Shown here one piece after another: positions 2-45,318 of a stretch of DNA of 46,493 nt; the first letter of the stretch is position 1; every line of letters starts with the position of its first letter. The position numbers were made by a program, and so were the translations under genes. Location: IMG/VR virus record IMGVR_UViG_3300036771_000002, positions 1 through 46,493 of that record; one strand, 5' to 3'. The notes under the pieces are model-generated. The model was not told the origin of the DNA and did no database searches. It saw only the letters and a list, made by a program, of their open reading frames with translations. The DNA comes from a virus.

Positions 2-127
2 TGGGGAAGGTATTATGTGTCTTCCCACATAGTAGCTTCACTGTATCAGACTGGGGACTACACCCCAGATTTGTTTCCAGATAACTCAAATTTTGATACA
101 AGCTTGTCAACTGCGGTAGGGGCTTGA
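2..127 (+). CDS. C-terminal fragment of an unknown protein (5' truncated)
   Basis: An open frame enters from the left edge of the window and stops with TGA at 125-127, giving about 41 residues that end in the acidic, Pro/Asn/Ser-rich sequence YTPDLFPDNSNFDTSLSTAV. The stop sits inside a hairpin that looks like a terminator, as expected for a real gene end. No domain can be recognised from so little. I cannot tell whether it belongs to the packaging genes or to another class. Confidence 0.45.
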   Translation, partial: WGRYYVSSHIVASLYQTGDYTPDLFPDNSNFDTSLSTAVGA

Positions 128-146
128 ACAACCCCTACCCCTCTTT
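115..146 (+). terminator. Hairpin terminator after the left-edge gene
   Basis: GGTAGGGG (115-122) pairs with CCCCTACC (132-139) around a 9-base loop, followed by CTCTTT. The T-tract is short and interrupted, so termination may be partial. It overlaps the stop codon of the upstream gene. Confidence 0.55.
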
Positions 147-218
147 ATGTCCACAACATCACAGAATACTCACACCTTAGATACTGATTTCGATTTTAAA
201 TCACAGGGGGTAATGTAT

Positions 219-2273: not shown

Positions 2274-2280
2274 AAGAGTT

Positions 2281-2315
2281 AAAAACCCTAAGATACTAAA
2301 TCTTAGGGTTTTTTC
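2281..2315 (+). terminator. Strong Rho-independent terminator
   Basis: A perfect 13-base stem (2281-2293 with 2301-2313, core AACCCTAAGA/TCTTAGGGTT) has a 7-base loop. The A-run on the left and T-run on the right make it usable in both directions. It follows the SLH gene by a few bases. Confidence 0.9.
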
Positions 2316-2374
2316 TATTATAAGGGGAAAACTCACAACCACTCGACTTTCTTTTATTAAAGGAGTGGTGATAG

Positions 2375-3283
2375 ATGAAGCACTGGGAACATACAGAAGT
2401 GGTAGACATGCCTGCGTACAAGGAGTTCTTACAGTTTGGTACTCCTATTGTACCTAGTAAACAATTACCCTTCAATACAGCAGTTTACGTAGTTTGTGAT
2501 GGTGGCTCTAAGCAGTTAGAAGGTATCTATGACAAGACTGTCGGTGGTATCAGACCCCTTAAAGACACTAAAGCTCCAAACCGTGACCTAAGACTGTATA
2601 AAGATGCAATCCAATCAGAGAATATCACAGTACTAGCAGTGGATGGATTAATGGGAACAGGTAAGACATCTACCATTGTTGAAGCATTAATTAAGAAGCA
2701 TCTAAGTAATGTTCATTTACCAGACCATGTATTTGCAAGTGGTAACTGGAAACCAGACCCAGATGTACACAAGATACTTATCTCTAAGCCTGCTGTAAAC
2801 GCTGGTGAAGAGGAATATGGTTTCTTACCTGGGGATATTAATGAGAAGATGATTCCTACTCTTCGTAACTACACCCAATATTTTGATAGAAACCATCAAT
2901 CAGGTTTCAGTAACCTTAATACAGCTGGATATGTTGAGGTACTACCCTTAGGATTCGTTCGTGGTATGGATGCAATGAATACTGACTTAGTAGTCGATGA
3001 ATGTCAGAATACTAAAGAGTTAGTAACAATCGTATCTAGAAGGGCAGAGAATTCTAGAATATTTTTAATAGGAGATACTTCTCCATTCCAAATAGACCTT
3101 AAAGGGAATACCCCGACTAAGAATGGTCTCAATGACATCATTGACCTCTTACAGGGAGCAGAATACTTCCAGTATATTGAAATGAAATCTCTAGAAAACA
3201 TCGTAAGAAGCTACGAGGTAAGGGATTTAGTGAGAAGACTGTTTAAGAAGCATGGTGCTAACCCTCAAGAGTGGCGTTCTTAG
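2375..3283 (+). CDS. PhoH-like P-loop ATPase
   Basis: A 302-residue protein of the PhoH-like ATPase family (related to the nucleotide-binding core of superfamily 1 helicases). Visible motifs are Walker A GLMGTGKT (91-98), the family signature GEEEYGFLPGD (144-154), Walker B LVVDECQN (205-212) and GDTSPFQID (233-241, motif III-like). The roughly 80 residues before Walker A are extra to the core domain and unrecognised. PhoH-like proteins are common in large phage genomes and their exact role is unsettled; RNA or nucleotide metabolism is usually suggested. The start follows an AAAGGAG site. The gene stands alone between a strong terminator and a hairpin, so it may have its own promoter, which I could not identify. 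Confidence 0.88.
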   Translation: MKHWEHTEVVDMPAYKEFLQFGTPIVPSKQLPFNTAVYVVCDGGSKQLEGIYDKTVGGIRPLKDTKAPNRDLRLYKDAIQSENITVLAVDGLMGTGKTSTIVEALIKKHLSNVHLPDHVFASGNWKPDPDVHKILISKPAVNAGEEEYGFLPGDINEKMIPTLRNYTQYFDRNHQSGFSNLNTAGYVEVLPLGFVRGMDAMNTDLVVDECQNTKELVTIVSRRAENSRIFLIGDTSPFQIDLKGNTPTKNGLNDIIDLLQGAEYFQYIEMKSLENIVRSYEVRDLVRRLFKKHGANPQEWRS

Positions 3284-3300
3284 GTATTTCCAAGGTACAC

Positions 3301-3327
3301 AAGGTGGGGTATTTGTTACCTCACCTT
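3301..3327 (+). terminator. Hairpin after the PhoH-like gene (weak terminator or processing site)
   Basis: AAGGTGGGGTA (3301-3311) pairs with TACCTCACCTT (3317-3327) through 11 pairs including one G:U, with a 5-base loop. No T-run follows, so it may be an RNA-processing or stability hairpin rather than a terminator. Confidence 0.5.
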
Positions 3328-3351
3328 ATATTAATGTAAGGGGGACTACAC

Positions 3352-3534
3352 ATGGCTATGACAAAGGTTCAGCTAATTACAGGTATTATCTATACTGAAG
3401 AGCCTGCTACTAAACTACGCTCATTCCTACAGGGTGGAGTTAAAACAGGAACATTCGTAGGATATACTGATGAGAATAAGACTGATAAGGTTATTGTAGC
3501 GGTTCATGCAATGGAATATATTTTTGTTAAGTAG
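3352..3534 (+). CDS. Small unknown protein (60 residues)
   Basis: A 60-residue frame whose ATG lies 7 bases after AAGGGGG (3338-3344), which makes it a credible gene despite its size. The product is mixed alpha/beta with no membrane segment or Cys motif. The run KVIVAVHAMEYIFVK at the C-terminus looks like paired beta-strands. A clear terminator begins at its stop codon, supporting an expressed cistron. No family recognised. Confidence 0.65.
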   Translation: MAMTKVQLITGIIYTEEPATKLRSFLQGGVKTGTFVGYTDENKTDKVIVAVHAMEYIFVK

Positions 3535-3560
3535 AGGTCTCTAAAAAGAGACCTTTTCTT
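3535..3560 (+). terminator. Rho-independent terminator
   Basis: AGGTCTCT (3535-3542) and AGAGACCT (3547-3554) form an 8-pair stem with an AAAA loop, followed by TTTCTT. It starts immediately after the stop of the 60-residue gene. Confidence 0.85.
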
Positions 3561-3627
3561 ATGCAGGAGAGAGGTTTTGAGAATCTCTTTCTTTTAAGGT
3601 AAAAATCAAAGGAATGGAGAGATTCAC

Positions 3628-4206
3628 ATGACTTGTGAACGTGTAGCACCAAAGACCATTAATCTAGTACCAGAATCATACAATAACCCTAGAATACTAA
3701 GAGGGACTTGGATTTACTCCCATCCCACTAAACCAATGCCCTCCCTCCCATTTGTCTATAGATTTAGGGAGATTATAGCTCAAAGCAGACAGTGTGGGGA
3801 TAACTCGCAGGTAGTATTTGATGCAATTACTAATTATCCTACTTTAACTAATAAAGTCAATTTAACCCTAGAACAAGTGGCAGATAATAGGATGACTAAG
3901 AGAAGGATGAACTACATGGATGGTTCACTAACTCTAAGTGCTACTGAGGAGAACTACCTAGCAGCAGCTAAGGAAGTTATAGACTCTCATTTTGCTGGGC
4001 TGTACTATAAGTATATGAGAAGTGGAACAGTTGTAGGATTGAAAATAAATACCTCTAGTAAGGCTATTTATGCTATGACTTGTGAAGTTAACAGTTTCCT
4101 AAATGAAGTGGTGCTTAGAGGGGGAAAACTAAGCTCAACCAGTGTATATAGAATTATGGGTATTCTAAATAAGAACTTTGAGTTATTACAGGAGGAATTG
4201 GAATGA
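3628..4206 (+). CDS. Unknown protein (192 residues)
   Basis: No family recognised. The protein is largely helical after residue 55 and has no membrane segment or signal peptide. The N-terminal 50 residues are Pro-rich (for example SHPTKPMPSLPF). It starts about 9 bases after a GGAG site and ends in an ATGA overlap with the next gene, so it is translationally coupled to a small membrane protein. The pairing, and the early position before the cargo/head block, are the only clues to function. Confidence 0.7.
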   Translation: MTCERVAPKTINLVPESYNNPRILRGTWIYSHPTKPMPSLPFVYRFREIIAQSRQCGDNSQVVFDAITNYPTLTNKVNLTLEQVADNRMTKRRMNYMDGSLTLSATEENYLAAAKEVIDSHFAGLYYKYMRSGTVVGLKINTSSKAIYAMTCEVNSFLNEVVLRGGKLSSTSVYRIMGILNKNFELLQEELE

Positions 4207-4403
4207 TTACACTTTTAGTGTTATGTATAGGATTATTTTTAGGTGCAGGTGCAATTTTGGTGTTAACAGGTATACAAATAAAGGGAGACAGTGAGTACAT
4301 TGTCAACTTTACAATCGTGTGTATTCTCTTCATAGTGTTCTGGTTATCCCTTGGGGGTATAATTCAGAGCATAGTATATTTAATTACAGGGAGGTTTATC
4401 TAA
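4203..4403 (+). CDS. Small two-helix membrane protein (66 residues)
   Basis: Two hydrophobic segments, at about residues 2-24 (starting ITLLVLCIGLFLGAGAILVL) and 33-62 (TIVCILFIVFWLSLGGIIQS), are separated by a short charged loop with GDSE. It overlaps the upstream stop (ATGA) and has AGGAGG a few bases before the ATG. The two-helix hairpin is compatible with a holin-like or superinfection-exclusion-type protein, but the position is far from the recognisable lysis genes at the right edge, so I leave it unnamed. Confidence 0.7.
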   Translation: MITLLVLCIGLFLGAGAILVLTGIQIKGDSEYIVNFTIVCILFIVFWLSLGGIIQSIVYLITGRFI

Positions 4404-4618
4404 TGGCTTTTACATTAATGAAATGGAATGAACAATACGGTGGAGATGCTAAGTTTGTAGTGCGAGATGATGATACTGGTAAACAAAGTATGTTTACCCC
4501 TGGTAGAGCACAAGATGTCGTCTGGACTAACAGTGACTTAGCCAATGCACCAGAGATGTCTAAGTGGAGTGACTTTGGTGATGAAACAGTAGACAATTTA
4601 GAAGATGTAGCATTTTAA
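4403..4618 (+). CDS. Small acidic unknown protein (71 residues)
   Basis: The start is the ATG at 4403 (MAFTLMKWNEQYGG...), which overlaps the preceding stop as TAATG and has CAGGGAGG at 4387-4394 with 8 bases of spacing. The same frame opens further upstream at 4319, but that start lies inside the membrane-protein gene and has no ribosome site. The product is acidic and soluble, with Trp-containing turns (VVWTNSDLA, MSKWSDFGD). A strong terminator follows within 6 bases. No family recognised. Confidence 0.7.
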   Translation: MAFTLMKWNEQYGGDAKFVVRDDDTGKQSMFTPGRAQDVVWTNSDLANAPEMSKWSDFGDETVDNLEDVAF

Positions 4619-4623
4619 TTGTG

Positions 4624-4658
4624 TAAGCCCTTACAATAGTAAGGGCTTATTTTTATTT
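4624..4658 (+). terminator. Rho-independent terminator before the cargo/head block
   Basis: TAAGCCCTTAC (4624-4634) and GTAAGGGCTTA (4639-4649) form a perfect 11-pair stem with an AATA loop, followed by TTTTTATTT. It closes the small-gene group. Confidence 0.92.
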
Positions 4659-4682
4659 AGAGAAGTCGGGAGGTGGGTTAGA

Positions 4683-5996
4683 ATGGAGTTAATTATAAAC
4701 ATCAACAAAGCCAGAGTCCTTAATACAGGCAAACTAGTTAAACGTGCTGTTCAAGTAAAAGGACAGGGTGGTAGAACATTCACTCGTATGCAATGGATAA
4801 ATCCTGATAAAGGTAAACCAGTAATGGAGACATCACATGAAGGACATGAAGACCCTCATGCACATAGAGTAGCTAACATGAGTCCTGAACAGAAGCATTC
4901 TATGGTCAATCACTTTGTATCTAATAATAGGGATGAAGCGAATGACCTAGCAATGACTACAGGACAGAAGAGAGCACCTTATGTAGCAGACCATCAGGTT
5001 ACTCAGCACTTAATGGATCATGCACACAAGATACCTCATGAATACGTGAAAGACCACTTAGACAGTAAAGAGTCAAAGCCTAGTCTAAATGTAGTGGGAA
5101 GTGACCTTCCAGAGAAGGAAGTTAACAAGCGTATGGGTAAGGAAGGTAGTTTAGACTTGTCCAAACTCAATACAGGGGCTTCAATGTATGATGACGACAT
5201 CTTTAAAGAAGATACAGAGTATGCTAGTGAGGAAGGTCTTAACCCAGAGAAGGAATTTAGACATGTATTCAAAGACGTTACTAAAGCTGGTATTGAGAAT
5301 GTATTTTCTGACCCTAAGGGTAACTGGACTGCACAGGTATCAGGTTATGACCTATTCCAGGATGGGGATAACGTGAACTGTGGCTTAAACATGACCCTAT
5401 ACGACAAGGATGGGGAGAAGATGGGACATATCATACGTTCAGCTTACCATGACGCAGATGGCACTCTACAGATACACAATGATGAGATGGAGCTAAAGAC
5501 ACAGTATCATGGTAAAGGGGTAGCCCAAACTATATACGACAGGTCTGAGCAATTATGGAGACACCTATCAGGTGGGCACAAGGTGGAGATAAACCTGACA
5601 GCCAATATTAGTGTTGGTGCATATGCATGGTCTAAGAAAGGCTTTGATTTTGCTAATGACAAGGAGCTAAAGATGGCTAGGGAAGAACTGAAACAATTCT
5701 GTAGAGGCAATGATATTAGCCTAGCAGATGTGCTTAAGAAGAGTGGACACAAGAGCGTAGATGATTTAGACCACTCATGGCAGTTCTCTACACTACAGAA
5801 TGGTAAGTCTTATGAACTGGACAAGGTTATAGACCCTAAATATAAAAAGGATGTTGAGGGTAGAGAAGGTCATTTTGGTAAGGCTTTCATGCTAGGCGGA
5901 TTGGGTATATGGGACGGTAAAAAGACACTAAACGATGACCATTCTTCAGAAAAAGTAGGTGAAATACATGGCAGAGCAACTAAAAAGAACAGCTAG
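4683..5996 (+). CDS. Candidate packaged protein with shared N-terminal motif and GNAT-like region
   Basis: The 437-residue product opens with NINKA, then GKLVKRAVQVKG and RTFTRMQWINP (residues ~16-41), a motif repeated in the next gene and in weaker form at 9613. A helical, charged middle follows. At about residues 245-325 there is a GNAT acetyltransferase-like stretch: paired strands, then QYHGKGVAQTIYD (the Q/RxxGxG/A acetyl-CoA loop pattern) and VGAYAWSKKGFDF. The fold call is by eye and needs structure prediction. Position directly upstream of zincin, portal and protease genes suggests a head-associated or ejected protein. GGGAGG precedes the ATG. The last 29 bases overlap the next gene. 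Confidence 0.7.
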   Translation: MELIININKARVLNTGKLVKRAVQVKGQGGRTFTRMQWINPDKGKPVMETSHEGHEDPHAHRVANMSPEQKHSMVNHFVSNNRDEANDLAMTTGQKRAPYVADHQVTQHLMDHAHKIPHEYVKDHLDSKESKPSLNVVGSDLPEKEVNKRMGKEGSLDLSKLNTGASMYDDDIFKEDTEYASEEGLNPEKEFRHVFKDVTKAGIENVFSDPKGNWTAQVSGYDLFQDGDNVNCGLNMTLYDKDGEKMGHIIRSAYHDADGTLQIHNDEMELKTQYHGKGVAQTIYDRSEQLWRHLSGGHKVEINLTANISVGAYAWSKKGFDFANDKELKMAREELKQFCRGNDISLADVLKKSGHKSVDDLDHSWQFSTLQNGKSYELDKVIDPKYKKDVEGREGHFGKAFMLGGLGIWDGKKTLNDDHSSEKVGEIHGRATKKNS

Positions 5997-8900
5997 AAAA
6001 GTACCTCATTACCGTCACGGTAGAGAAGGTATGAGTAGTGAAGGTGATGCTTGGATGCATCCAGAAGTGTTTGATGACGATTACGAACGAAAAACGAATT
6101 CTGACATAAGACGTTATATGGGTTCTCTGACGAAATCCAATCGTTTGGTTGTTGACATTAACAAGGCTGAAGCACCGAAAACTGGTAGGTCTTTGAATAG
6201 AGGAAAATTGGTGAAGCGCGCGGTACAAGTGAAAGGGAAAGATGGTAAGATGTTCACTCGTATGCAATGGGTAGACCCGAATGATGACCACCAAATACAG
6301 TCCCACCCTCTACACCAAGAGCCTTCACTGGAAGGTACTAAGCCTACCTCTTCTAAAGACCCTAGTGAGATGTCACGGGAAGAATACGTAGACCATCATG
6401 TTCGTAAGAAGATGTCTAAAGAAGAGAAATACGATATGCTAGAGAAACATGGGGTTGAATGGAAGCGAAATAACCATGAAGCTATTGACCATAAGAATGC
6501 TGTAATGGCTCTTAAAAACCATCTATTAAAGAATCCTCACCTTATTGGTGCGCACAACAATAAGGAAGCAAAGGACATTGAGAAGCCAATAACAGGTACA
6601 GATGATGAGAATGAGTTCTGGAATATGTGGGATAAGGCTGACAGAGAGGGTTCATATGAGCTTATGCGTAAGCTGGGTATTATAGAAAAGGATGAGCAAG
6701 ACCCTAGATTCGACCCTAATGTAAAGGAAAATATGAAGCCTATTAAGCACTTACTGAACGTTACTCGCTTGAAGAAGCATCTACGTGAGAATAGGCACCT
6801 TATGACTGACCCTGAATATCTTCCTACAAAGGATACAAATGCAACTAAGGCTGCTAAAAAGCAATTAGAAGATAAGAAACAAGGTATCAAGCCATCTCCT
6901 GCACAAGCAGGTGGTAATGATGTCCACACTATCTTAGCTAATATGCCGAGGGAACAGTTGTATAAGCTTATGAAGGATGCAGGTATAGCAGATGAAGACC
7001 CACTTATCACAGGAGATAAGATGGCAGGGGTTAAGCACCACCTTAACATGATTAAGTTCAAGAAGCACCTAGAACAACACCCTGAGATACTAACTCACAA
7101 TCCTGATGGTTCTCTTACAGAAGGTGAGAAGGAACGTATTGCTTCACTACCTGAAGAGGCTAAAGAACGTGACCGTATTAAGAGCTTTGTGTCTGATATG
7201 TCTCAAGAGGACGTAGAGGATGCACTAGACAAATACTCTGACCATGATGCAGTTAAGAACAGAACTAAATCTGACCATGAGGGTATTAACAGTATGCATG
7301 CAAAGGGTGCTCTAGTTAAAGTATTCTCTGAAGATAAGGAAAGAATGAAGCCTTATCAAAAAGAGGTAAGGGCTGACAGACTAATGAAGATGCGTATTGG
7401 TAATAAGGTTATGGGTAAATTCCTACGTCATGCATTTGGCTTCAAGGGTATAGGAGACTTAAAAAGACCTGAAGATGATGAGTTCCGTACTACAGAGTGG
7501 CAATGGCATGGTAATGGTGGTAGTGGCTCTGCCATGATGGAGAAGAACGAGGATGGAGATGCAGTACTAACTGTTATAGACTATGGGGAAGATGGTCAAG
7601 GGTGGAACGAATTCCAAGTCCCTCTACAGGAGGTTAAGGACTTTGTAGACGATTTGAGAAAAGGGAACGAACAAAAGAAAAAGGTTGAGCAGAAGGAAGT
7701 TCCCCTACAGAAGAAGCCAGCAGACCAGATAGAGAAAGCCCTAAACGAGAGTTTCGAAAAGAACTACACTCCAGAGGTTGGGGAGGTCATGAAGTCCCAC
7801 TTTACTAAACTGTGGAATAATGCAGACCGCTCTGGAAAGATTAGTGACATCGTGAAGAAGTCTATGAATATGACTAAGGGTACTATGAGGAACTTACTTA
7901 AAGAATGGGGTGTTCCAGTCTCTCCTACAGGAGATATTATTAAGACTAACGACCCTAACTTTAAGTCTATGGTATTCAAGGATGAGATTCAAGATAAGAA
8001 GTCTAAGAGTGCTATGGATTACCTTAAAGCAGCAGACATAGGAGTAGACCGCAAAGCTACACCTGATGCTCCCTATGACCCTTATGTACTACACGAATCA
8101 GCTAAGAACTGGACAGAAGGGGAGAAGGCACAGGCACGTAAGGAGCTATTAAAGAATGCAATTCATGTTAAGACGGGTATTACACATGAAGACCATGACA
8201 AACGTATAGCAAAACTTACAGACCACCTTCATTCATCTACGACTCATATACCATTTGACTTGATGAGTCACTTAATGGCAAATGGTATGAAAGTTAAGTT
8301 CTCTGATGTAGATGCTCACGGTAATGCTCACACAGGGGCTAACTACAATGGTAAGGACAATGCTATTTATCTTGACTCTCAGTACTATCATTCTACGTCA
8401 GTGTTTAAAGACCATCCACATGACCACATACCAGAGAAGACAGAACATCCTACTATCAAGGGAGCTAAATACGGTCACTGGAGTATAGGAGAGAATATGG
8501 TGCATGAATCTGCCCACGCTATTGACAGATTCCTAAGTGGTGGGGATTCCTACCTAAACTGGGATAAAGGTCAAGGTAGTACTTATGCTAAAGACCATTT
8601 AAATACTGTTCCTGAACATTATAAGAAGAAAGTTGAACAGTCTAACCCTGATAAGGAGATTAGATACAGCAAGGAAGGAAAGTATTTTTATGTTTTAGAT
8701 GAGTGGATGTCCAACTATGAGGGACGTGTCTATGGAGAGTATCAAAAGCTAAATCCCGATTACGTTCACTCTGACAATGGTACAGGTAAGATGTATGATA
8801 AGAAGTTCCAAGGTGTGGAAGGTATGCATGGTACTGAACACTGGGCTGAATCGGTAGCAGGTTATGGTAATGCTATTCACTCTTACCAACGTTGGAAAGA

Positions 8901-34178: not shown

Positions 34179-34418
34179 ATGCCAGAGATGAAGGTACTGG
34201 AAAGTGGGGGTATAGTATTCGTCCCTACGGCAGAGGAACAAAAAGTAGCAGATATGAAGATACAAGCCCAGAAAGACTTAGAAGAGACTCAATTATTAAA
34301 GACCCAAGCACAACAAGAGCTATTCGAGGTCAGGCAAATGAAGGAAGAAATAGAGGTGATACACAGAAGAGCAGAGAAAGTACTACAAGACTTGAAGGAG
34401 ATGAGACGAAATGGCTAG
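34179..34418 (+). CDS. Small coiled-coil protein before the giant fibre (79 residues)
   Basis: The product is a short beta start (EMKVLESGGIVFVPTAEE) followed by a continuous coiled coil (QAQKDLEETQLLKTQAQQEL). AGGAAGGGG lies upstream of the ATG, and the 3' end overlaps the fibre start by 8 bases. An alternative frame (34106-34423) through the same region begins in the previous stop, crosses the terminator and lacks a ribosome site. It may be a fibre chaperone or linker; function unknown. Confidence 0.65.
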   Translation: MPEMKVLESGGIVFVPTAEEQKVADMKIQAQKDLEETQLLKTQAQQELFEVRQMKEEIEVIHRRAEKVLQDLKEMRRNG

Positions 34419-37400
34419 TATGAAGGTCAGATTAGGTGGTAAGTGGGTTACTGTAGCAGGTGGCGGAGTGTCTCAAGAAGACCTGCAACAAGTGGTAAAT
34501 GAAGCCAATGATTATGCTAACCGATTAAAGGAACAAATAGATGACGACATCACAGCTATGGAGAATAGTATCACAGGTCTAGAAAATAATATTGAGGGTG
34601 CATTCTCTGATGGTATCATCACTAAGACTGAAGCTAGACGTATCCAATCTTATATTAATACTTTAGATACAAACAAAGCACGCTTTGACAAAGAGTATAC
34701 TAGTCTTATCAACAACCCATTTATGAACGAAAATGATAAGCAAGGTTTAATCTCTGCTAAGGCTAGTCATGATGAGAAGTTTGCCTTACTTGTCAAGGCT
34801 ATTAATGACGCTATTGCTGATGGTAAAGCCACTGTGGAAGAAGCTAAACACGTTAATGAGAGCTTTACTAACTACAATAATGCAACTGCTGTACTTACTT
34901 CTGCTATTTATGAAGCGATTGATGATATTGCAACTAATAAAACAGGAGTAGCTCTAGAAGATGCTAAGTCATTTGCTAACCAAGCAGCAGAGGGAGTTAA
35001 GACTATCCTAACTGCTGAAGTACAGGGTGTTCAGAAGTCTGTAACTGACCTAGATACAGAAATCAAGGGTGCATTCCGTGATGGCATCATACAAGAGAAT
35101 GAGCTATCTTCTATTAAGGCTTATTTAAATACTCTTGATACTTCTAAGCAAGGCTTAGACAAGAGATATGAGTCCACGTACAACAATGTTGACTTACCTG
35201 CACAGAACAAGACTAATCTTAATACCGTTAAGATTGATTATGACCGTTCTTATACTGCATTAATCAACACTATCAATGATGCCATTGTTGACCAGTTAGG
35301 TACTCCAGAAGAGCAGACTCTTATCAATACAAAGTTTAAGGACTACAACCAAAAACTTGCGCTATTAACAACTCAATTGGAACTTGCAATTGAAGCAATT
35401 TCTAAGACTAAATCTACTAGAGCAGAAACGAATGCAAAAACATATTCTGACCAAATCAAGAGCGACATGGCAGATGAGATTAAAGGGGTAGAAGATGCTA
35501 CTACTGCATTGAAGACGGAAATTAATACTACCTTTAAAGATGGAATCATAGATGCAAGTGAGGCACAGAAGATTAAGTCTTATATAAACTTATTGGATAA
35601 CAATAAGAAAGCCTTACTAGAAAGATATACTGAGCTATACAACAACGGATTCATTTCTGCTATAGCTAAGACAACTCTGACTAGTAAGAAGACCTTGTTT
35701 GACGCTAAATATAATCTTCTTATTAGTGAGATTACTAATGCAATTGCTGATGGTAAAACTACTATGGGTGAGTCTCAAGCTGTAGATAGTGCTTTCACTG
35801 TGTACAATGATGCAGTTAAAGAGTTTACAAATGCTATGGAAAAAGCAGCAGATAGCATAGCACAAGGTAAAGCAAATGCAGCAGAGTTTAACGCTGGAGA
35901 GTATGCAGATGAGGCTAGTAACCGCCTAGATGTAATTAAAGTACGCTACATCAAGAATACTCTTTCAGGTAGCTCGGTTAATGCTTACAAACACTGGACT
36001 GAAATCAAAGCTATTAGTAAAGGTGTAAACGTTGCTCTATCGGGTACTGTTACTGGTAGTCCTGGTATTACAAACCTTGGCGTGGTTAATAACGACAAAG
36101 TAGATGACCAGTTTGCAGAAGACCGTACAACAGGTGATTCATTCGTACAGATTGACTTAGGTACAATCAAGGATGATATCGACTACATCCAATTATGGCA
36201 CTACTATCAAGATGCAAGACAGTACAATGGTAACAAGCTGGAGGTATCTGCTGATGGACAGAAATGGTACACTATGTTCAACAGTACTAAATCTGGTACG
36301 TACAAAGAGTCTGCTGATGGTTTCATTGTACCAATCAATGCTGGGCGTATTTATAATCACACTATGCAACGTATCACTAGTACCGAGACTCAAATAACTA
36401 ATATTAATGGTGAATTACAATCTAGAGTAAAGACTACAGTATTTGACCAAGGTATTAAGGACTCTAAGGAACATGCAGATGCAGTAGCACAGGCTGTTCG
36501 TAATGAGCTGTCTAGCTTCTCTAGTCTTATCACTAATCGTATTGATGGTATTGAAGACCAAGTGGATGGCAATATTACTACCTGGTTCTTAACTGGAGCA
36601 CCAACACTAACTAACAAACCATCAGTAGACTGGAATACAGATGTGTTAAAGGATACTCATTTAGGTGACCTTTACTACGATTCTGCTACAGGGTACTGTT
36701 ACCGATTCTTGAAGACAGGTATTATCTATGCATGGGCTAAGATAACTGACTCTGACGTTACTGAAGCCATCCAAAAAGCAGCTAAGGCACAAGATACAGC
36801 AGATGGTAAGAGACGAGTATTCGTTGTTCAACCTATTCCTCCGTATGATGTGGGTGATTTATGGGCACAAGGTTCTGCTGGAGATTTAATGCGTTGTAAC
36901 GTTGCTAAGGCACAAGGTGCATTGTATAATGCAGGAGACTGGAGTAAAGCTTCTAAATATATTGACCAAAAGACAGTAAATGACACCCTAAATCCATTCG
37001 TAACTAGATTAGAGACTGCTGAGTCGTCTGTTATACAGAATGCTAGGGAAATCTCTGAACGTGTTAAGATTGATACGTATAACCAAGAGATTATTAACAT
37101 CAATACTAATGTGGGCAATATTGATACCGCACAAAAAGGCACTGCCGATAAATTAAACAAGTTGTCTATTGGTGGTCGTAACTTACTGAAGAACAGTGGT
37201 AACTTTGTTACTATTGAGAACTGGACGTCTTCTGACACTGCTACTGCTACAGTAATGCTGGACAAAGATGACCTTAAAATCAGTAAAGTAGGGTTAGCTA
37301 CAGCAGTTCACATTATCAACCCTAGCTTACAACGTGTTGAATGGGATGTTAATAAGGAATATACTATTACTATTAGGGCTAAAGGTTCTACTGGATTTGA

Positions 37401-40400
37401 CCTTAGTTTGGGTATCCAGAGTGCTACCATCATTCCTCTAGGAATAGTTTCGGTAGGTGCGGTTACTACTGCATACAAGGAGTTCACTCTAACATTCAAG
37501 CCTAAGGTGACAGGTGTTGCAGACTTCCGTATCTCAACCACTGCTATTCCTAATGGAGGAGCTTTATGGGTTGACTGGGTTAAGGTGGAAGAGGGTAACA
37601 AACCTACCGCTTGGTCACCAGCACCAGAGGACTTAACAGACTATGCAGATATATCTGTAAGCCAGATACTAGATTCCTCATTTGAAAGAGGTCTACGCTT
37701 CTGGAGTGCTTATAATGCAACTATTGATGTAGGAGCCCCTTTACAAAGTGGAGTGACTTACAAGACTTCTTCTGACAGTATTACTGGTAGAACTGCTTTA
37801 CAAATATCTGATGCAGAAGGTTGGATATACTCTTCTAACGCTATTCCAGTAGACACAAGCCGAGTCTATCGTGTTCGCTTCCGTGTTAAGAAAACACGTG
37901 ATGTTGATACTGGTGGTACTAATATATATGCTGGTGTTGCTACCTATGATAAGAACGGTGTGCTTCAAAGTACAGCTCCTGGTAATCACAGATACTGTGC
38001 AGCAAGTGGGAAACCATTAAAGGTAGCTGATGGATGGCAGGTATTTGAAGGGTATATCACTGGTGAGGGCAATGTGACTCATAACCAATTTAGACCAGGT
38101 ACAGCGTATGTAAAACCTATGTTTGTAGTGGACTATGCTAAAGGAACTGGCGGTATCAACATAATCGACCTTATGGACTTTGAAGATGTTACTGCACAGA
38201 TTAAGGCACAGGACTACTCAGAAACTAAGATAGGTGAGGCTAAAACTGCACAGGAAGCATACGCTAGAGCACAGGCGGAGGCTGCTAAGACAGTGGCTAA
38301 TGCATATGCAGATGGCATTGTTACTGCTGAAGAACAGCGTGCAATAGATGATGCTAATGCAAAACTACAAACAGCTAAGGCATATGCAGAACAGAAGGCT
38401 AAAGATGCACAGGATGCAGCACAAGGCTATGTGGATGGCATTGAAATAGGTGGTACTAACCTACTTAAAAACTCTGGGTTCAAAGACTCTCTTAGCTATT
38501 GGTCAATAGGTTCCAATGTCACTGTGGACTCTAAGGAGTTCGAGGGCTACCCTACAGTGTTAAGTAATCAAAGTGGTAGAACAGATGACATTTGGGCAGG
38601 TATAAACTCTTCTGCACAGTGGTATCCATGTAAGCCAGGTGATAAGTTTGTAGGTAGCATATACACTTACACAGAAAATATAGCAGGGTTTGAAGGTAGG
38701 GGAGGAAATGTAATCGTAGACTTCTACGATATCAATAACACTCGTATGCCAGGATGGTTACAGACATCTATAATACCTTCTAAGCAGGGAGAGTGGCAAC
38801 GCTTTACAGTTCAGGGTACTGCCCCAGCAAATGCTGTTAAGGTTCGTATATATGCTTATGTTACTCGTAATGGTAAGCTATGGATGGCTAAACCTCAACT
38901 AGAAAAGGGTACTAAGGCTACTGCATGGGGGCTTGCTCCAGAGGACTTAGTAGAAGCTATTGGTAAGGTTAAGGTTGGTGGGAAGAACTTATTAATAGGT
39001 AGTGAGTCTCTATCTATTATATCTAATAATGTTGCTGTATATCCTATAACTGTTACTAAGATGACTGAAGGGGCTGTTAGCTTCAATCGTGTTAAGAACT
39101 CTAAGGCAGGAACGGATGTTAATACAATAAGTGTATATAACACAATACCGTTTAACACCATCTCTGACAATATTGCAGGTAAACAAGTTACATTCTCTCA
39201 TCAAGTTCGTGCATCTAAGGCAGTAGAAGGTTCTATAATGCATGAGTTATATGGTGCTTCTACATTAAAGCTACCTGCTTCTAATACTAAGTTTGCTGTA
39301 ACTACAGACTGGCAGACTCTCTCTATTACTGTAGACATGCCTAGCAGCCTTAGTGGATACACAGGTGTCAGATTCTTGTTATCTGCATTCTCTAGTATGG
39401 TGGATCAATATGTAGACTATAGAACTATCAAGATTGAGTTTGGTAACAGGTCTACAGACTGGACACCTGCCCCTGAAGACGTAACTAAGCTTATAGCAGA
39501 TGCAGACAAAAAAGCACAGGATGTAACTGGTAGAGTAGATGAAATGTCAGCGGATGATAAGCTAACTTCTTTAGAGAAGCAAGATGCTAAGAAGGATTGG
39601 GATATTATTGCTGGAGAGTATAGTAACTTCTATACTCAAGCGGATGCTTTCAAGGTTACTACAGAAAAAGCTACTTACAAGACTAGATATGATGAGTTAA
39701 ACGCTTACCTTACTCCTTTGTTTACTAAAATGAATGAGACCTCTACTATCGTAAGAGCTGACTATAGACTGAAATTCAAGAACTACTTTGAAGCTAAGTC
39801 TGCACTAGCAAAAGCTATTTCTGATGCTTCTAAGTCTCAAATTGACAGTATTGTTATAGGTGGTCGTAACTACTACAAGCAAAAAAGCTTTACTGCTGCT
39901 GGTAGTACTACCGCAACATTTGACCCAGTAGAAGGTGTATGGGTAGTCACTATACCAAAAAATACCAACTCTTCTTGGAGAGGTATCATGTATAATGCAA
40001 AGAACGCCCTACTGAGAGCAGGTAGAACGTACACAGGTAGCTACGAAATTTATGCAGATGTAGTCATTCCTACTAACGTTGACATTAACAACTTTGGGGT
40101 AACTACTGTCACAGGTACTAATGATAATGATGAAGTAGCTAAAAGGGTTATGAGTTACCCTCCTACTGTTCCTGGTAAGTGGGTTAAGGTGTCCTATACT
40201 TTCACTATACCTTCCAATGCTACTCAAGATTTCTACGATAACTCTGTAATAGGTATAAATGGTGCGGCTAGTGCATGGACTCCTACTGTAGATACTGTTA
40301 TCAAAATCAAGAATATGAAGCTTGAGGAAGGTACTAGACCTACTGATTGGACTCCTGCACCAGAAGATATAGACCAGTTAATAACTGACCTAGACACTAA

Positions 40401-43400
40401 GGCTACTACTCTACAAACTAGTGTGGATGCTATGTCTGATGACAATTTGCTTACTCCTAGTGAGAAGTCTTTATTGAAAAAGGACTGGGATTCTATCGTT
40501 GGTGAGTACCCTACTATATCTGCACAAGCAGATGCATTTGGGGCTACTGCTGAGAAGGCTAATTACACTACTGCATACAATAACCTTAAAGGTCTTATAG
40601 AAACACCTCTTGCAAATGTCACTACGACATCTCCTGTTAATGGAGCTGATATGAGAACCAAGTTTAAGGACTATGCAGACAAAAAATCTAAGCTATTAAG
40701 ATATCTGTCAGATGCAGCTAAGTCCCAGATAGATGGCATCAACGTTGGTGGACGTAACTTAATCTCAGGTACTATGTTTAAAGACGCTACTGGTTGGTCA
40801 CGTTGGAGCACCTATGAAAGATGGGGCGTTAGGAATGATGCCTACAACAATATGGACTTTCTATTCATGGAAACCCTTACTAGTGCAGGCGCTCAAGTTG
40901 TAGTTCCTATAGGAACTAAACTAGGCGTACAGAGTGATGGTCGTACCTTCTCTGTTAAGAAGGACACAGAGTATACTATATCTATGGTAGTTGCTACTAG
41001 TGAGCTTAATAATACTCTAGACTACCTATATCTCATGCACAGTGATAAGGTCAATTTTAGACTACCAGATATTAAAGTTGATAGCTTCCCTAAATACAGT
41101 CTAATAGCTTCTGGGTCAGGCACTTACTTCTACAAAGTTAGTATAACGTTCAAGGCTATTAAAGATGATGCTAATGCATATCTTTTAATAGGAGGAACTC
41201 TATTCAGAGCTATGACAGGTAGTAACGGATATGCTTGGATTCGAGTAGCATATCTTAAAGTAGAGGAAGGTAATAGACCTACTGCATGGTCACCATCCTT
41301 TGAGGATATCTTTGGGGATATTAAAGCAGCCGATAAGAAGGCACAGGACGTACAGAACTCTGTAAATGATATGTCTGCTGATAACAAAATGACTGCCTTA
41401 GAAAAGCATCAAGCTAGTAAGGATTGGGAAGGGGTCAAGGCAGAATATCCCATAGTGTCTGCACAGGCAGATGCTTATGGCAAGACTGCCGAGAAAACTG
41501 CTTATACGACTGCTTATACTGCACTGAAAAACTATATTGAACCTATCTTAGTTAAGCTAAATGAGACTTCTGACATAGATGGCAACAACTACCGAGGACT
41601 ATGGAAGAACTACTCAGACACTAAGTCTAAGCTACTGAGAGCAGTCACAGATGGCTCTAAAGATGCTATAGATAATATATCTGTTGGGGGCAGAAACTTA
41701 ATTCTAGGCTCTCATAAGGATTTCTCAACAACAGACTATCTAATTAATCAGTACATGCTATCTGAGAACTGGGTAGCTGGTCAAGAGTACACTTTTGTAA
41801 TTAAAGGTACTGTCCCAGCAGGTCAGAAGTTTGGCATATGGATGAATGGTGGCTCTAATAATGTTGGGTATGCTACAGCTACTTACATTAATGGAGTAAC
41901 CTATGTAACATTCAAAGCTATAGCTACTACCTCCGGTAATGAGAGAATCATCAACCTATATAACTTTCCAAGTAACACTACTGCATCTACAGTAGATTGG
42001 GTTGCGTTATATAGAGGTAATAAACCTATGGATTGGACACCTGCTCCAGAGGAAGTACAAGGGAATATTGACAATATCCAAGTGGGTAGCCGTAACTACA
42101 TTGGTAACGGTGACTTCAGTACTCCACTTGAAGATGACCCTAACAAAGCATTCTACGCTAAAGGGGACATACAAGAGATTGTAGACATCTCTACGGAAAC
42201 TCCACCCCATAAGTGGGCTTTACACTGTAAGAATACTGCTGCTAAAAATAATGGTCAGGCTAACTTCCCTGTGTTCATTGGTAACGCTGCTAAAGACTTA
42301 CTAGGTAAGGAAATAACTGTGAGTATGTGGGTAAAATACCAAGGAGTTGTTAAAGGAGCAAATGTTTGGAACAGCTTGCGAGTAGGAGACCTTTCCATAG
42401 ATTACAAAAAAGCTGATGGTGTCACATATAACTATCAACCTTCTGTAATTGACCAGGTGGTAGGAACGGACATGACTTGGAAGAGGGTATTTGCTACCTT
42501 CAGAATAAACCCAGCAGGGGCTACTGAAATCACTCGTATTGGATTTAGGTCTCTACTTGAGGGTTGTATAGGGGAGTTCTGGGTTACTGGTCAGAAAGTA
42601 GAGATTGGTAACAAGGTTACTGACTGGACACCAATGCCTGAAGAGGTCAATAATGTTATCTCTACTATCACAACTCGTGTTGGTTCTGTAGAGGCTACCA
42701 CTAAAAATTTAGGAGACCAGCTTCTTAGTAAAGTAGAGAGCACTGACGTGTATACCAAGCAAGAAGTACTAGGTAAACTTGCAGAAGGTGAAATCTATCT
42801 AAAAGGTACTGGTCTAAACCACGGTGGAAACCGAGTACTAAAGGTAAATGGAGCTACTAAGTATGATAGTAATGCTACTCGTGGTTTACGCTTACTGACT
42901 TTGAGTAGAGCAAACTTAGCAACAGTAGAGGACATCAACTATGATGTATATGCAAGTGATGCTCAACAGATTGCCCTATCTGATAAGCTGAAATCTTTAG
43001 GTAATAACGTCTTGGTCACTCTTACATCTTACGATGCAATTAATATGACTACTAATACTGGATTGCTAGATACCCTAGCTGACTTTGGAGGTTCTGGTCA
43101 AGAGCTACGAGGTAGATTCCCATTTGCATTTATAGGTCTTAAGGGTCTTGGTAAAGGGTCTGGTATTGAGGTATCAACTGGTTTAGACCAAACGAAAACA
43201 CCTGTAGCAGAGGTGTTTACTAAGGTATCATCAGGTATACCACAAGGATTCAATACTTCATCTAAGGTACTAAATGATACGGTAAGTACTATCACTACTA
43301 GAGTAACTACTGCCGAGTCTACAATCAGTCAGCATTCTAAGAGTATTGACCTAAAAGTAAATGTTGATGGAGTTATTGCAGCTATCAACCTCTCTCCTGA

Positions 43401-45318
43401 AATTGGGAAGGGTGTACTAATCCAAGGGGAGAACATCATGCTTGATGGTAAGGTAAAAGCTAGACACCTTGCAGTGACGGACTTAGCTAACATCGTTATG
43501 AACAGTGATTTGAAGGATGGTTTAAGTGGATACTCAGCGGGTACCCTCATTAAGAAAGCCAATGCAAATAGAGCCAATGAGGTACCAACAGACTACGTAA
43601 TTGAGCATAATGGCAGAGACCTGTACTATGGTGACCCATTTCCTATTAATAGACTAGAGGTGTTCTCTTGCTCACTCCTAGCTAAGCAGATTGCAGGTAC
43701 AGCTTTATGTAGCATAGGTCTATGTTTCACTAATGTAAACTCTGCTGGAGTTGTAACACAGACTGATTGGAGAAAGGCTACAACATTCCCTAATGATACT
43801 GATATCCCTAACACGCCTTGGAAAACCCAACAAGGTCTAGTAACCGCTCCAGACTGGGCAACTCATGCAAGAGTGTGGATACAGATTGAGCAACCAACAG
43901 GTACTACCACAACTAAGTGGCAGGTGACCCTAGCAACGGTTAGACGTACTGGTTTACTAACGTTTGACCAAGCTAAAGGGGGTACCCTTGAGTTAGGGGA
44001 AGGTGGACGTGGATTACTTCGTGTGTATGCAACTGTCAATGGCAACCAAGATACAGTAGGTCAGATTGATGAGAATGGAGCCAGCTTTACTAAGGTTAGA
44101 ACTAACCTTCTAGAGGTTTCTGGTAATATCAGTGCCCCTAACATAGTTACTAGTAATAGGGCTTGGTTGGAACTATTTGTAGACCCATCTAATAGTGGTA
44201 ATTATACTCCAGACGGCTCTATAACTAAACCATATAAAACTATCAGGGATGCCTTAAACAGTGTACCTAAATATATAGACGTTGACGTGGAAATCAAGCT
44301 TCAAAATGATACCTATGAACAATGGATAGACGTTAGGGGCTTTGTGGGTGCAGGTACCGCAGGAGGAGCAGGTATATTCCTTAGATCTGGTACTAATGGT
44401 AGAAAGACCATATGGGGAGGTGTCCGATGCTGGTACAATTCTGCTCCAGTATTCTTAAATGACCTCAATATAGTCAGCAATACTCAAGATGCCAATGGGG
44501 TATTAGAATCCTATGGGTGTACTAAAGTAAGTTTATGGAGATGTAACCTTACAGGCAACAATAAAGCTAAGACAGGGGCTTACTCTGAAGCTAGTAATGT
44601 GTGGCTAAACGACTGTGAAATCTACAGTTCTTGGGATATGTTTAAAGTATACCGAGGGTATATGTGGGTGCTCAACTGTCGGGGGGGCGACTGTGCTACT
44701 GTTTTCTCTAGTGTTGCTGGTACTATTCAAGGTGCAGGTACTAGACCTGGATTTAGAAATGGTGGCGCTGAGAAATATGTAGAGCAAGGTGGGTATATAA
44801 GTGGTAACTGGACAGAGAACACTGGTTCATGGTCTAAACCACAACCTCCAGTAAACCCAGTACAGGAAGCATATGTGGAACCTAATGGTGCTAAGTCATG
44901 GCGTGATAACTTTGGTGGTCAATGGTACCGTGATGAAGTCCTACAAGGTACATGGGATGGATATGGTAACTACAGAGGGTGCTGGTTCTTTGGTAACAAG
45001 TTTGACTTCCTGAAAGGTAAGACTATCCTGGATATGACAATATACATCAAACGCTCAAACAGTGGTGGGGCTAGTGCTGCACAACAAGTTAGTATACGTA
45101 CCCATGACCTGCTTAGCCAACCAGCAGGTATACCTCCATTATCTAGCCCTGTAACAGGTAACTTCTTTGCATGGGGTGAAGGAAAGTGGATTAACGTTAA
45201 GGCTCTTGCTGGTAGCTTCCAGACAGGGAATGCTAAAGGATTTGGTATATATGCTGATGCAGGCTCTCCTTATATGATATTCGATGCTTGGTGTCAGGTT
45301 TGGGTTAAGTATCAATAA
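34411..45318 (+). CDS. Giant mosaic tail fibre / receptor-binding protein (3,635 residues)
   Basis: Order by residue (approximate): 54-490, three helical repeats (FxDGIIxxxEaxxIkSYInxLD); 509-647, discoidin/F5-8-type sugar-binding-like domain; 724-854, IPPYDVGDLWAQG module; 917-2750, about eight CBM-like modules, most starting GGRNLL and ending KVEEGNxPTxWxPAPED, three of them preceded by a ~115-residue helical spacer (SADDKLTSLEKQDAKKDWD type); 2794-2947, ILEI/PANDER-like domain (GTGLNHGGNRVLKVNG, NNVLVTLTSYDAI, FAFIGLKGLGKGSG); 2947-3036, coiled-coil/siphovirus-like tail segment; 3037-3180, another CBM-like module; 3252-3435, right-handed beta-helix; 3461-3635, tip domain (GYGNYRGCWFFGNKFDFLKG). 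It should bind host surface glycans. No premature stop interrupts the frame. Confidence 0.88.
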   Translation: MASMKVRLGGKWVTVAGGGVSQEDLQQVVNEANDYANRLKEQIDDDITAMENSITGLENNIEGAFSDGIITKTEARRIQSYINTLDTNKARFDKEYTSLINNPFMNENDKQGLISAKASHDEKFALLVKAINDAIADGKATVEEAKHVNESFTNYNNATAVLTSAIYEAIDDIATNKTGVALEDAKSFANQAAEGVKTILTAEVQGVQKSVTDLDTEIKGAFRDGIIQENELSSIKAYLNTLDTSKQGLDKRYESTYNNVDLPAQNKTNLNTVKIDYDRSYTALINTINDAIVDQLGTPEEQTLINTKFKDYNQKLALLTTQLELAIEAISKTKSTRAETNAKTYSDQIKSDMADEIKGVEDATTALKTEINTTFKDGIIDASEAQKIKSYINLLDNNKKALLERYTELYNNGFISAIAKTTLTSKKTLFDAKYNLLISEITNAIADGKTTMGESQAVDSAFTVYNDAVKEFTNAMEKAADSIAQGKANAAEFNAGEYADEASNRLDVIKVRYIKNTLSGSSVNAYKHWTEIKAISKGVNVALSGTVTGSPGITNLGVVNNDKVDDQFAEDRTTGDSFVQIDLGTIKDDIDYIQLWHYYQDARQYNGNKLEVSADGQKWYTMFNSTKSGTYKESADGFIVPINAGRIYNHTMQRITSTETQITNINGELQSRVKTTVFDQGIKDSKEHADAVAQAVRNELSSFSSLITNRIDGIEDQVDGNITTWFLTGAPTLTNKPSVDWNTDVLKDTHLGDLYYDSATGYCYRFLKTGIIYAWAKITDSDVTEAIQKAAKAQDTADGKRRVFVVQPIPPYDVGDLWAQGSAGDLMRCNVAKAQGALYNAGDWSKASKYIDQKTVNDTLNPFVTRLETAESSVIQNAREISERVKIDTYNQEIININTNVGNIDTAQKGTADKLNKLSIGGRNLLKNSGNFVTIENWTSSDTATATVMLDKDDLKISKVGLATAVHIINPSLQRVEWDVNKEYTITIRAKGSTGFDLSLGIQSATIIPLGIVSVGAVTTAYKEFTLTFKPKVTGVADFRISTTAIPNGGALWVDWVKVEEGNKPTAWSPAPEDLTDYADISVSQILDSSFERGLRFWSAYNATIDVGAPLQSGVTYKTSSDSITGRTALQISDAEGWIYSSNAIPVDTSRVYRVRFRVKKTRDVDTGGTNIYAGVATYDKNGVLQSTAPGNHRYCAASGKPLKVADGWQVFEGYITGEGNVTHNQFRPGTAYVKPMFVVDYAKGTGGINIIDLMDFEDVTAQIKAQDYSETKIGEAKTAQEAYARAQAEAAKTVANAYADGIVTAEEQRAIDDANAKLQTAKAYAEQKAKDAQDAAQGYVDGIEIGGTNLLKNSGFKDSLSYWSIGSNVTVDSKEFEGYPTVLSNQSGRTDDIWAGINSSAQWYPCKPGDKFVGSIYTYTENIAGFEGRGGNVIVDFYDINNTRMPGWLQTSIIPSKQGEWQRFTVQGTAPANAVKVRIYAYVTRNGKLWMAKPQLEKGTKATAWGLAPEDLVEAIGKVKVGGKNLLIGSESLSIISNNVAVYPITVTKMTEGAVSFNRVKNSKAGTDVNTISVYNTIPFNTISDNIAGKQVTFSHQVRASKAVEGSIMHELYGASTLKLPASNTKFAVTTDWQTLSITVDMPSSLSGYTGVRFLLSAFSSMVDQYVDYRTIKIEFGNRSTDWTPAPEDVTKLIADADKKAQDVTGRVDEMSADDKLTSLEKQDAKKDWDIIAGEYSNFYTQADAFKVTTEKATYKTRYDELNAYLTPLFTKMNETSTIVRADYRLKFKNYFEAKSALAKAISDASKSQIDSIVIGGRNYYKQKSFTAAGSTTATFDPVEGVWVVTIPKNTNSSWRGIMYNAKNALLRAGRTYTGSYEIYADVVIPTNVDINNFGVTTVTGTNDNDEVAKRVMSYPPTVPGKWVKVSYTFTIPSNATQDFYDNSVIGINGAASAWTPTVDTVIKIKNMKLEEGTRPTDWTPAPEDIDQLITDLDTKATTLQTSVDAMSDDNLLTPSEKSLLKKDWDSIVGEYPTISAQADAFGATAEKANYTTAYNNLKGLIETPLANVTTTSPVNGADMRTKFKDYADKKSKLLRYLSDAAKSQIDGINVGGRNLISGTMFKDATGWSRWSTYERWGVRNDAYNNMDFLFMETLTSAGAQVVVPIGTKLGVQSDGRTFSVKKDTEYTISMVVATSELNNTLDYLYLMHSDKVNFRLPDIKVDSFPKYSLIASGSGTYFYKVSITFKAIKDDANAYLLIGGTLFRAMTGSNGYAWIRVAYLKVEEGNRPTAWSPSFEDIFGDIKAADKKAQDVQNSVNDMSADNKMTALEKHQASKDWEGVKAEYPIVSAQADAYGKTAEKTAYTTAYTALKNYIEPILVKLNETSDIDGNNYRGLWKNYSDTKSKLLRAVTDGSKDAIDNISVGGRNLILGSHKDFSTTDYLINQYMLSENWVAGQEYTFVIKGTVPAGQKFGIWMNGGSNNVGYATATYINGVTYVTFKAIATTSGNERIINLYNFPSNTTASTVDWVALYRGNKPMDWTPAPEEVQGNIDNIQVGSRNYIGNGDFSTPLEDDPNKAFYAKGDIQEIVDISTETPPHKWALHCKNTAAKNNGQANFPVFIGNAAKDLLGKEITVSMWVKYQGVVKGANVWNSLRVGDLSIDYKKADGVTYNYQPSVIDQVVGTDMTWKRVFATFRINPAGATEITRIGFRSLLEGCIGEFWVTGQKVEIGNKVTDWTPMPEEVNNVISTITTRVGSVEATTKNLGDQLLSKVESTDVYTKQEVLGKLAEGEIYLKGTGLNHGGNRVLKVNGATKYDSNATRGLRLLTLSRANLATVEDINYDVYASDAQQIALSDKLKSLGNNVLVTLTSYDAINMTTNTGLLDTLADFGGSGQELRGRFPFAFIGLKGLGKGSGIEVSTGLDQTKTPVAEVFTKVSSGIPQGFNTSSKVLNDTVSTITTRVTTAESTISQHSKSIDLKVNVDGVIAAINLSPEIGKGVLIQGENIMLDGKVKARHLAVTDLANIVMNSDLKDGLSGYSAGTLIKKANANRANEVPTDYVIEHNGRDLYYGDPFPINRLEVFSCSLLAKQIAGTALCSIGLCFTNVNSAGVVTQTDWRKATTFPNDTDIPNTPWKTQQGLVTAPDWATHARVWIQIEQPTGTTTTKWQVTLATVRRTGLLTFDQAKGGTLELGEGGRGLLRVYATVNGNQDTVGQIDENGASFTKVRTNLLEVSGNISAPNIVTSNRAWLELFVDPSNSGNYTPDGSITKPYKTIRDALNSVPKYIDVDVEIKLQNDTYEQWIDVRGFVGAGTAGGAGIFLRSGTNGRKTIWGGVRCWYNSAPVFLNDLNIVSNTQDANGVLESYGCTKVSLWRCNLTGNNKAKTGAYSEASNVWLNDCEIYSSWDMFKVYRGYMWVLNCRGGDCATVFSSVAGTIQGAGTRPGFRNGGAEKYVEQGGYISGNWTENTGSWSKPQPPVNPVQEAYVEPNGAKSWRDNFGGQWYRDEVLQGTWDGYGNYRGCWFFGNKFDFLKGKTILDMTIYIKRSNSGGASAAQQVSIRTHDLLSQPAGIPPLSSPVTGNFFAWGEGKWINVKALAGSFQTGNAKGFGIYADAGSPYMIFDAWCQVWVKYQ
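34570..35890 (+). repeat. Three tandem helical modules in the fibre N-terminal region
   Basis: Three copies of ~120 residues each, starting near 34570, 35041 and 35500. Each has a GAFxDGII or TTFKDGII start, an IxSYINxLDxxK centre, a Tyr-containing YNN-type turn, and a helix with xNDAIxD or TNAIAD. The DNA copies are diverged, so they are old duplications. Coiled-coil linkers separate them. Confidence 0.8.
39500..41680 (+). repeat. Alternating helical spacer and CBM-like repeats in the fibre
   Basis: Spacers near 39500-39850, 40396-40740 and 41336-41680 share the pattern MSxDxxLTxxEKxxxKKDW, EYxxxxxQADAF, TEKAxYxTxYxxL and end in SKSQIDxI or SKDAIDNI. Each is followed by a CBM-like module beginning (I/N/S)VGGRN. 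The unit therefore repeats three times (~630 bp each) by domain duplication. Confidence 0.8.

Follow-up and report, generated by a model that had tools for sequence, protein, structure and literature searches.

The stem of POMGnT1 binds beta-linked GlcNAc via Arg129, Asp179 and Arg207, three residues that are conserved in FAM3 proteins, and GlcNAc resin was bound by FAM3C, by FAM3A and by the worm Fam3L2 domain (PMC9802357). A role of POMGnT1 Arg129 in sugar contact has been described (PMC9802357, PMC9437275).

Modules of the same type, the ILEI/PANDER (FAM3) domains, are already on record in phage tails. The ILEI domain in Bacillus phage tail fibres was published in 2018, when the fibre was noted as resembling proteins of phages JL, Shanette and CP-51 (PMC6145125); in 2022 CBM_1 of Streptococcus phage TP-778L was described as a POMGnT1-stem-like carbohydrate-binding module with Arg and Asp kept (PMC9437275). 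The Pfam ILEI match of TP-778L CBM_1 was confirmed (E 4.2e-6), and genes of Erwinia phage Y3 and Dickeya phage AD1 are already named for their ILEI domain. Hence an animal domain in a phage, the oddness of which was implied in a previous reading of this DNA made from the letters only, is not new: the domain described here is a well-supported further example.

The giant fibre and its phage

The window, a virus contig of 46,493 nucleotides analysed at its full length, contains at 34411-45318 (+) one uninterrupted frame of 3635 aa, which codes for a giant tail-fibre/tail protein housing the ILEI domain. The assignment of this protein is supported by the match of the ILEI-domain segment to PHROG phrog_21973 'tail protein' (3605 positions; E 1.3e-82) and by the viral structure search, in which the domain matched the tail fiber protein of Bacillus phage JL best (68% identity). 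The predicted structural domain (residues ~2792-2940, 42784-43230, +) lies in the distal third of the long chain. It is enclosed by the span of 42775-43250 given in the sequence-only reading, and all four peptides quoted there were found in frame in this ORF.

The major head protein showed up to 80% identity to SPO1-like phages; megablast of the structural genes matched no phage record. JL and CP-51 are classified as Herelleviridae, Spounavirinae, Siminovitchvirus. Judged by its sequence, the window phage is Siminovitchvirus-like, of the Herelleviridae, with CP-51, Shanette and JL as relatives, and from the relatives of this 46.5-kb contig we infer a Bacillus host and a wall receptor.

Upstream of the ILEI domain, motif positions and a CBM_4_9 match identified seven CBM-like repeat modules (GGRNLL...WTPAPE) between residue 921 and residue ~2744 (37171-42642, +), with motifs at residues 921-1068, 1347-1506, 1523-1684, 1817-1980, 2113-2293, 2426-2542 and 2559-2739. 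CBM_4_9 (PF02018) matched residues 1828-1938 with E 6.7e-6 and 27 bits, against a cut-off of 25.9. Between relatives some of the module cores are ~20-50% identical and the linkers mostly 80-100%. In this comparison the ILEI segment falls in between, with 66-74%, and is 100% identical in L002; a separate search gave it 77% identity to L004 and 74% to L006. At the sequence level, such mosaic divergence of the CBM-like modules would be as expected for swapped receptor-binding modules.

The N-terminal part of the fibre (34411-36000) has three helical repeats of ~155 aa, marked by the motifs FSDGIIT, FRDGIIQ and FKDGIID at residues 65, 222 and 375; these repeats gave a weak TerB-like match, under the cut-off. 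Motifs akin to the FSDGIIT type reappear at residues 1712, 2008 and 2321.

Two further observations concern the fibre gene in relatives. In L004 (2-7604) two overlapping frames (ORFs 2-3784 and 3819-7604), both of which match the window fibre, take the place of the single ORF found in relatives; a sequencing error, a genuine frameshift or a split of the gene may account for this. Two contigs from one metagenome meet inside the ILEI domain: L011 ends (5001-5340) and L007 begins (1-388) within it, with ~200 nearly identical bases of overlap. The two measure 67.8 and 70.7 kb, which sums to the size of one genome of ~138 kb, and the assembly was probably broken within the ILEI domain, perhaps due to strain variation.

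Downstream of the ILEI domain, a model of residues 2735-3635 was obtained with a mean pLDDT of 45 only, and assignments in this part are tentative for that reason. They comprise a probable beta-sandwich module (residues ~3044-3180, 43540-43950, +; local pLDDT mostly 50-76) and a probable right-handed beta-helix (residues ~3320-3530, 44368-45000, +), the latter proposed from short regular strands, starting at ~3338 in this low-confidence model, together with a reading of the sequence. The ILEI domain had been placed just before the beta-helix; according to the same low-confidence model it is separated from it by some 380 residues, with a helical linker and the probable beta-sandwich intervening.

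Family membership and fold of the domain

The curated cut-off of the Pfam family ILEI (PF15711) is 27 bits. Scanning of the whole 3635-aa protein gave 26 bits (E 1.3e-5), marginally below this value; the segment at 42712-43239 scanned alone gave 31 bits (E 3.6e-7), which exceeds it, and the six-frame search of the record gave 32.5 bits. The core match, seen in the Pfam scan and in the six-frame search, covers residues 2824-2912 (42880-43146, +) and profile positions 1-89 of 90. It was the sole match, and no second ILEI copy was detected by the six-frame PF15711 search of the 46.5-kb record.

The shortfall of one bit in the whole-protein scan might suggest that the resemblance is accidental, or that it is an artefact of a profile match at low threshold. 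We give this explanation practically no credence: the segment score is over the cut-off, the fold search against the PDB agrees, and an independent profile recovers the known members of the family. This profile (A3) was built from 14 aligned phage domains, with no animal sequences, and was run against PDB sequences. It recovered FAM3C (1.2e-14 and 1.7e-13), POMGnT1 (2.4e-11 and 3.4e-10), FAM3A (3.3e-11), FAM3B (1.9e-9) and TMEM2 (1.3e-7). Below E 0.1 only ILEI-family entries were found; the next match, at 0.16, was unrelated. The recovery of known ILEI members by a profile from which they were absent refutes chance resemblance.

A model of the ILEI segment, built from seven aligned relatives, reached a mean pLDDT of 78, with much of the core at ~90. 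Foldseek against the PDB returned 21 matches at E<=1e-3, and all 21 were FAM3A/B/C, POMGnT1 or TMEM2 (E 4e-7 to 3e-4); beyond those, the next match came only at 0.26. The model and these matches identify a globular beta-beta-alpha fold of the FAM3 type. The HMM and fold searches which the sequence-only reading had named as a check thus yielded a significant PF15711 match and a FAM3-type fold, and its assignment to the ILEI/PANDER (FAM3) family has the full support of the profile match, the fold and the reverse profile search. The segment is a genuine domain of the ILEI/PANDER fold, and its membership is settled. It is internal to a phage tail protein of 3635 aa and not a stand-alone protein of the secreted, cytokine-like FAM3 kind.

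Several other searches were less sensitive or gave no match. Single-sequence phmmer against the PDB detected no ILEI relative; its one match, a membrane antigen, was weak (E 0.021), and the result was superseded by the profile searches. With the window domain as the query, tblastn against phage records gave no match at E<=0.01, which may be due in part to the omission of near relatives from these records; queries from L012 and L014 did reach distant phages. Many of the L014 matches were limited to its first ~50-70 residues, a stretch that includes a fibre module shared outside the ILEI core, and were excluded, as was the locus cr55_1 (L025), whose match did not sit cleanly in frame. The scan of genome contigs showed no relative, and NCBIfam gave no match.

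The viral structure search also returned ILEI-fold proteins of giant viruses: two of Fadolivirus, an Indivirus glycosyltransferase and, weakly, L138 of mimivirus.

Sugar-site residues and probable function

Profile alignments placed the three sugar-contact residues of POMGnT1 on three residues of the phage fibre: Arg129 on Arg2824 (42880-42882, +), Asp179 on Asp2875 (43033-43035, +) and Arg207 on Arg2902 (43114-43116, +), each of which is also aligned with the corresponding FAM3 residue. In this respect the domain resembles a module of the POMGnT1-stem type. Across the 14 diverse phage domains just three columns are invariant, and two of them, Arg2824 and Asp2875, belong to the sugar site; the third is Asp2845 (42943-42945, +), the role of which is perhaps structural. 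Among the eight closest sequences all three sugar-site residues are invariant. In distant phages the position of Arg2902 is blurred by a gap-rich region of the 14-sequence alignment.

The published superposition of TP-778L involves Arg1119 and Asp1174, which are 55 residues apart (PMC9437275). In our alignments the TP-778L counterparts of Arg2824 and Asp2875 are likewise 55 apart, and the residue mapping is consistent with the superposition because of this same spacing. Comparison of the ILEI segment with three relatives gave dN values of 0.18-0.21 and dS values of 1.3-1.7, the latter near saturation; therefore, the segment is under purifying selection.

These results point to a carbohydrate-binding module: the ILEI domain probably aids the hold of the fibre on the cell-wall polysaccharide of Bacillus. 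Arg2824, Asp2875 and Arg2902 would line a pocket that corresponds to the one for sugar in the POMGnT1 stem, and this pocket would hold an amino sugar of the GlcNAc type, terminal or beta-linked, from the host polysaccharide. The module would raise the avidity given by the other CBM-like modules of the fibre and help the fibre to keep its hold of the cell in adsorption. The conserved residues could serve folding instead.

The main alternative is a structural role without sugar binding, in which the domain would serve as a spacer or joint, as in the hinge connector gp35 of T4. ILEI domains were indeed found in gp35 of T4 (E 1.1e-8, 35.9 bits), of Serratia phage 92A1 (E 6.8e-10, 39.8 bits) and of the pseudoteven phage UPEC03 (E 9.4e-11); several gp35s are among the viral fold matches of the window domain, gp35-like proteins are present in 1,365 phage records, and helical linkers flank the ILEI domain here, according to the models. 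However, gp35 of T4 and of several other phages has lost the Arg and Asp of the sugar contact, whereas the Arg/Asp/Arg set is intact in the window fibre and in every aligned close relative. The architecture also differs: gp35 is a short connector, encoded as a separate gene of ~370-530 aa adjoining the proximal fibre gene, while the domain described here lies inside one long ORF as one module among many. A spacer role is therefore unlikely, although it is the alternative to which we give most weight.

The carbohydrate-binding reading is favoured over a spacer because the sugar-contact residues are intact in the window fibre. The fold alone is no proof of binding, since T4 gp35 keeps the domain without the sugar residues. 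Of the glycan-binding or hinge role suggested for the domain in the sequence-only reading, glycan binding gains support by inference, from the intact Arg/Asp/Arg set and the CBM-like neighbours, and the hinge finds no direct support here.

The domain might also use the pocket face of FAM3 to bind a protein partner, either another subunit of the fibre or a protein on the host surface. The fold is versatile, and in animals the FAM3 proteins are secreted and act in signalling. Against this, the conserved residues are those which contact sugar in POMGnT1 and no partner is known, so that we consider binding of a protein quite improbable.

The loss of the sugar residues is uneven among gp35 proteins: both Arg and Asp have persisted in gp35 of the pseudoteven type, for instance in UPEC03, as well as in CYPEBC003 and in Serratia phage 92A1. 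The gp35 ILEI loci are L027:1-1119, L019:2315-3469, L023:1321-2916 and L028-L031. Among open-access full texts no paper was found on the ILEI domain in gp35 and the uneven loss of its sugar residues, which is weak evidence of absence. It is conceivable, if rather doubtful, that fibres of several virus families grip amino sugars of the bacterial wall with the Arg/Asp/Arg pocket of an animal muscle-glycan enzyme, and that the hinge connector of T4 derives from such a pocket-bearing form, with the pocket lost and the domain turned into a joint. The T4-type hinge connector is worth viewing in this carbohydrate-binding light.

If it acts as a carbohydrate-binding module, the domain offers a named receptor-binding candidate, three residues and one class of sugar, for fibres of Bacillus cereus-group phages, and it strengthens the case for the ILEI/PANDER fold as a general carbohydrate-binding module common to phages and animals. 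Among the animal proteins, the FAM3A/B/C group (ILEI, PANDER) shares fold and profile with the phage domain; these are secreted proteins of 12-20% identity, and their cytokine-like roles are not implied for the phage. The POMGnT1 stem (PDB 5GGJ, 5GGF) is similar in fold (TM 0.67/0.77) as well as in profile and in the three aligned sugar residues, but it shows 19% identity and is part of an animal glycosyltransferase.

Among phages, CBM_1 of the TP-778L Tal protein has the POMGnT1-stem fold with the Arg and Asp conserved; it differs in its 27% identity and in belonging to a siphophage tail-tip protein with collagen linkers. The Basilisk-like fibre (Basilisk gp51, PBC4 orf21) likewise carries an ILEI domain in a tail fibre (PMC6145125); it comes from another phage group and is likened here via its published description. 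The closest resemblance is that of the tail fibres of the Siminovitchvirus phages JL, Shanette and CP-51 of the Bacillus cereus group, which are the same giant fibre and differ from that of the window in sequence, with upstream modules of 20-50% identity in places.
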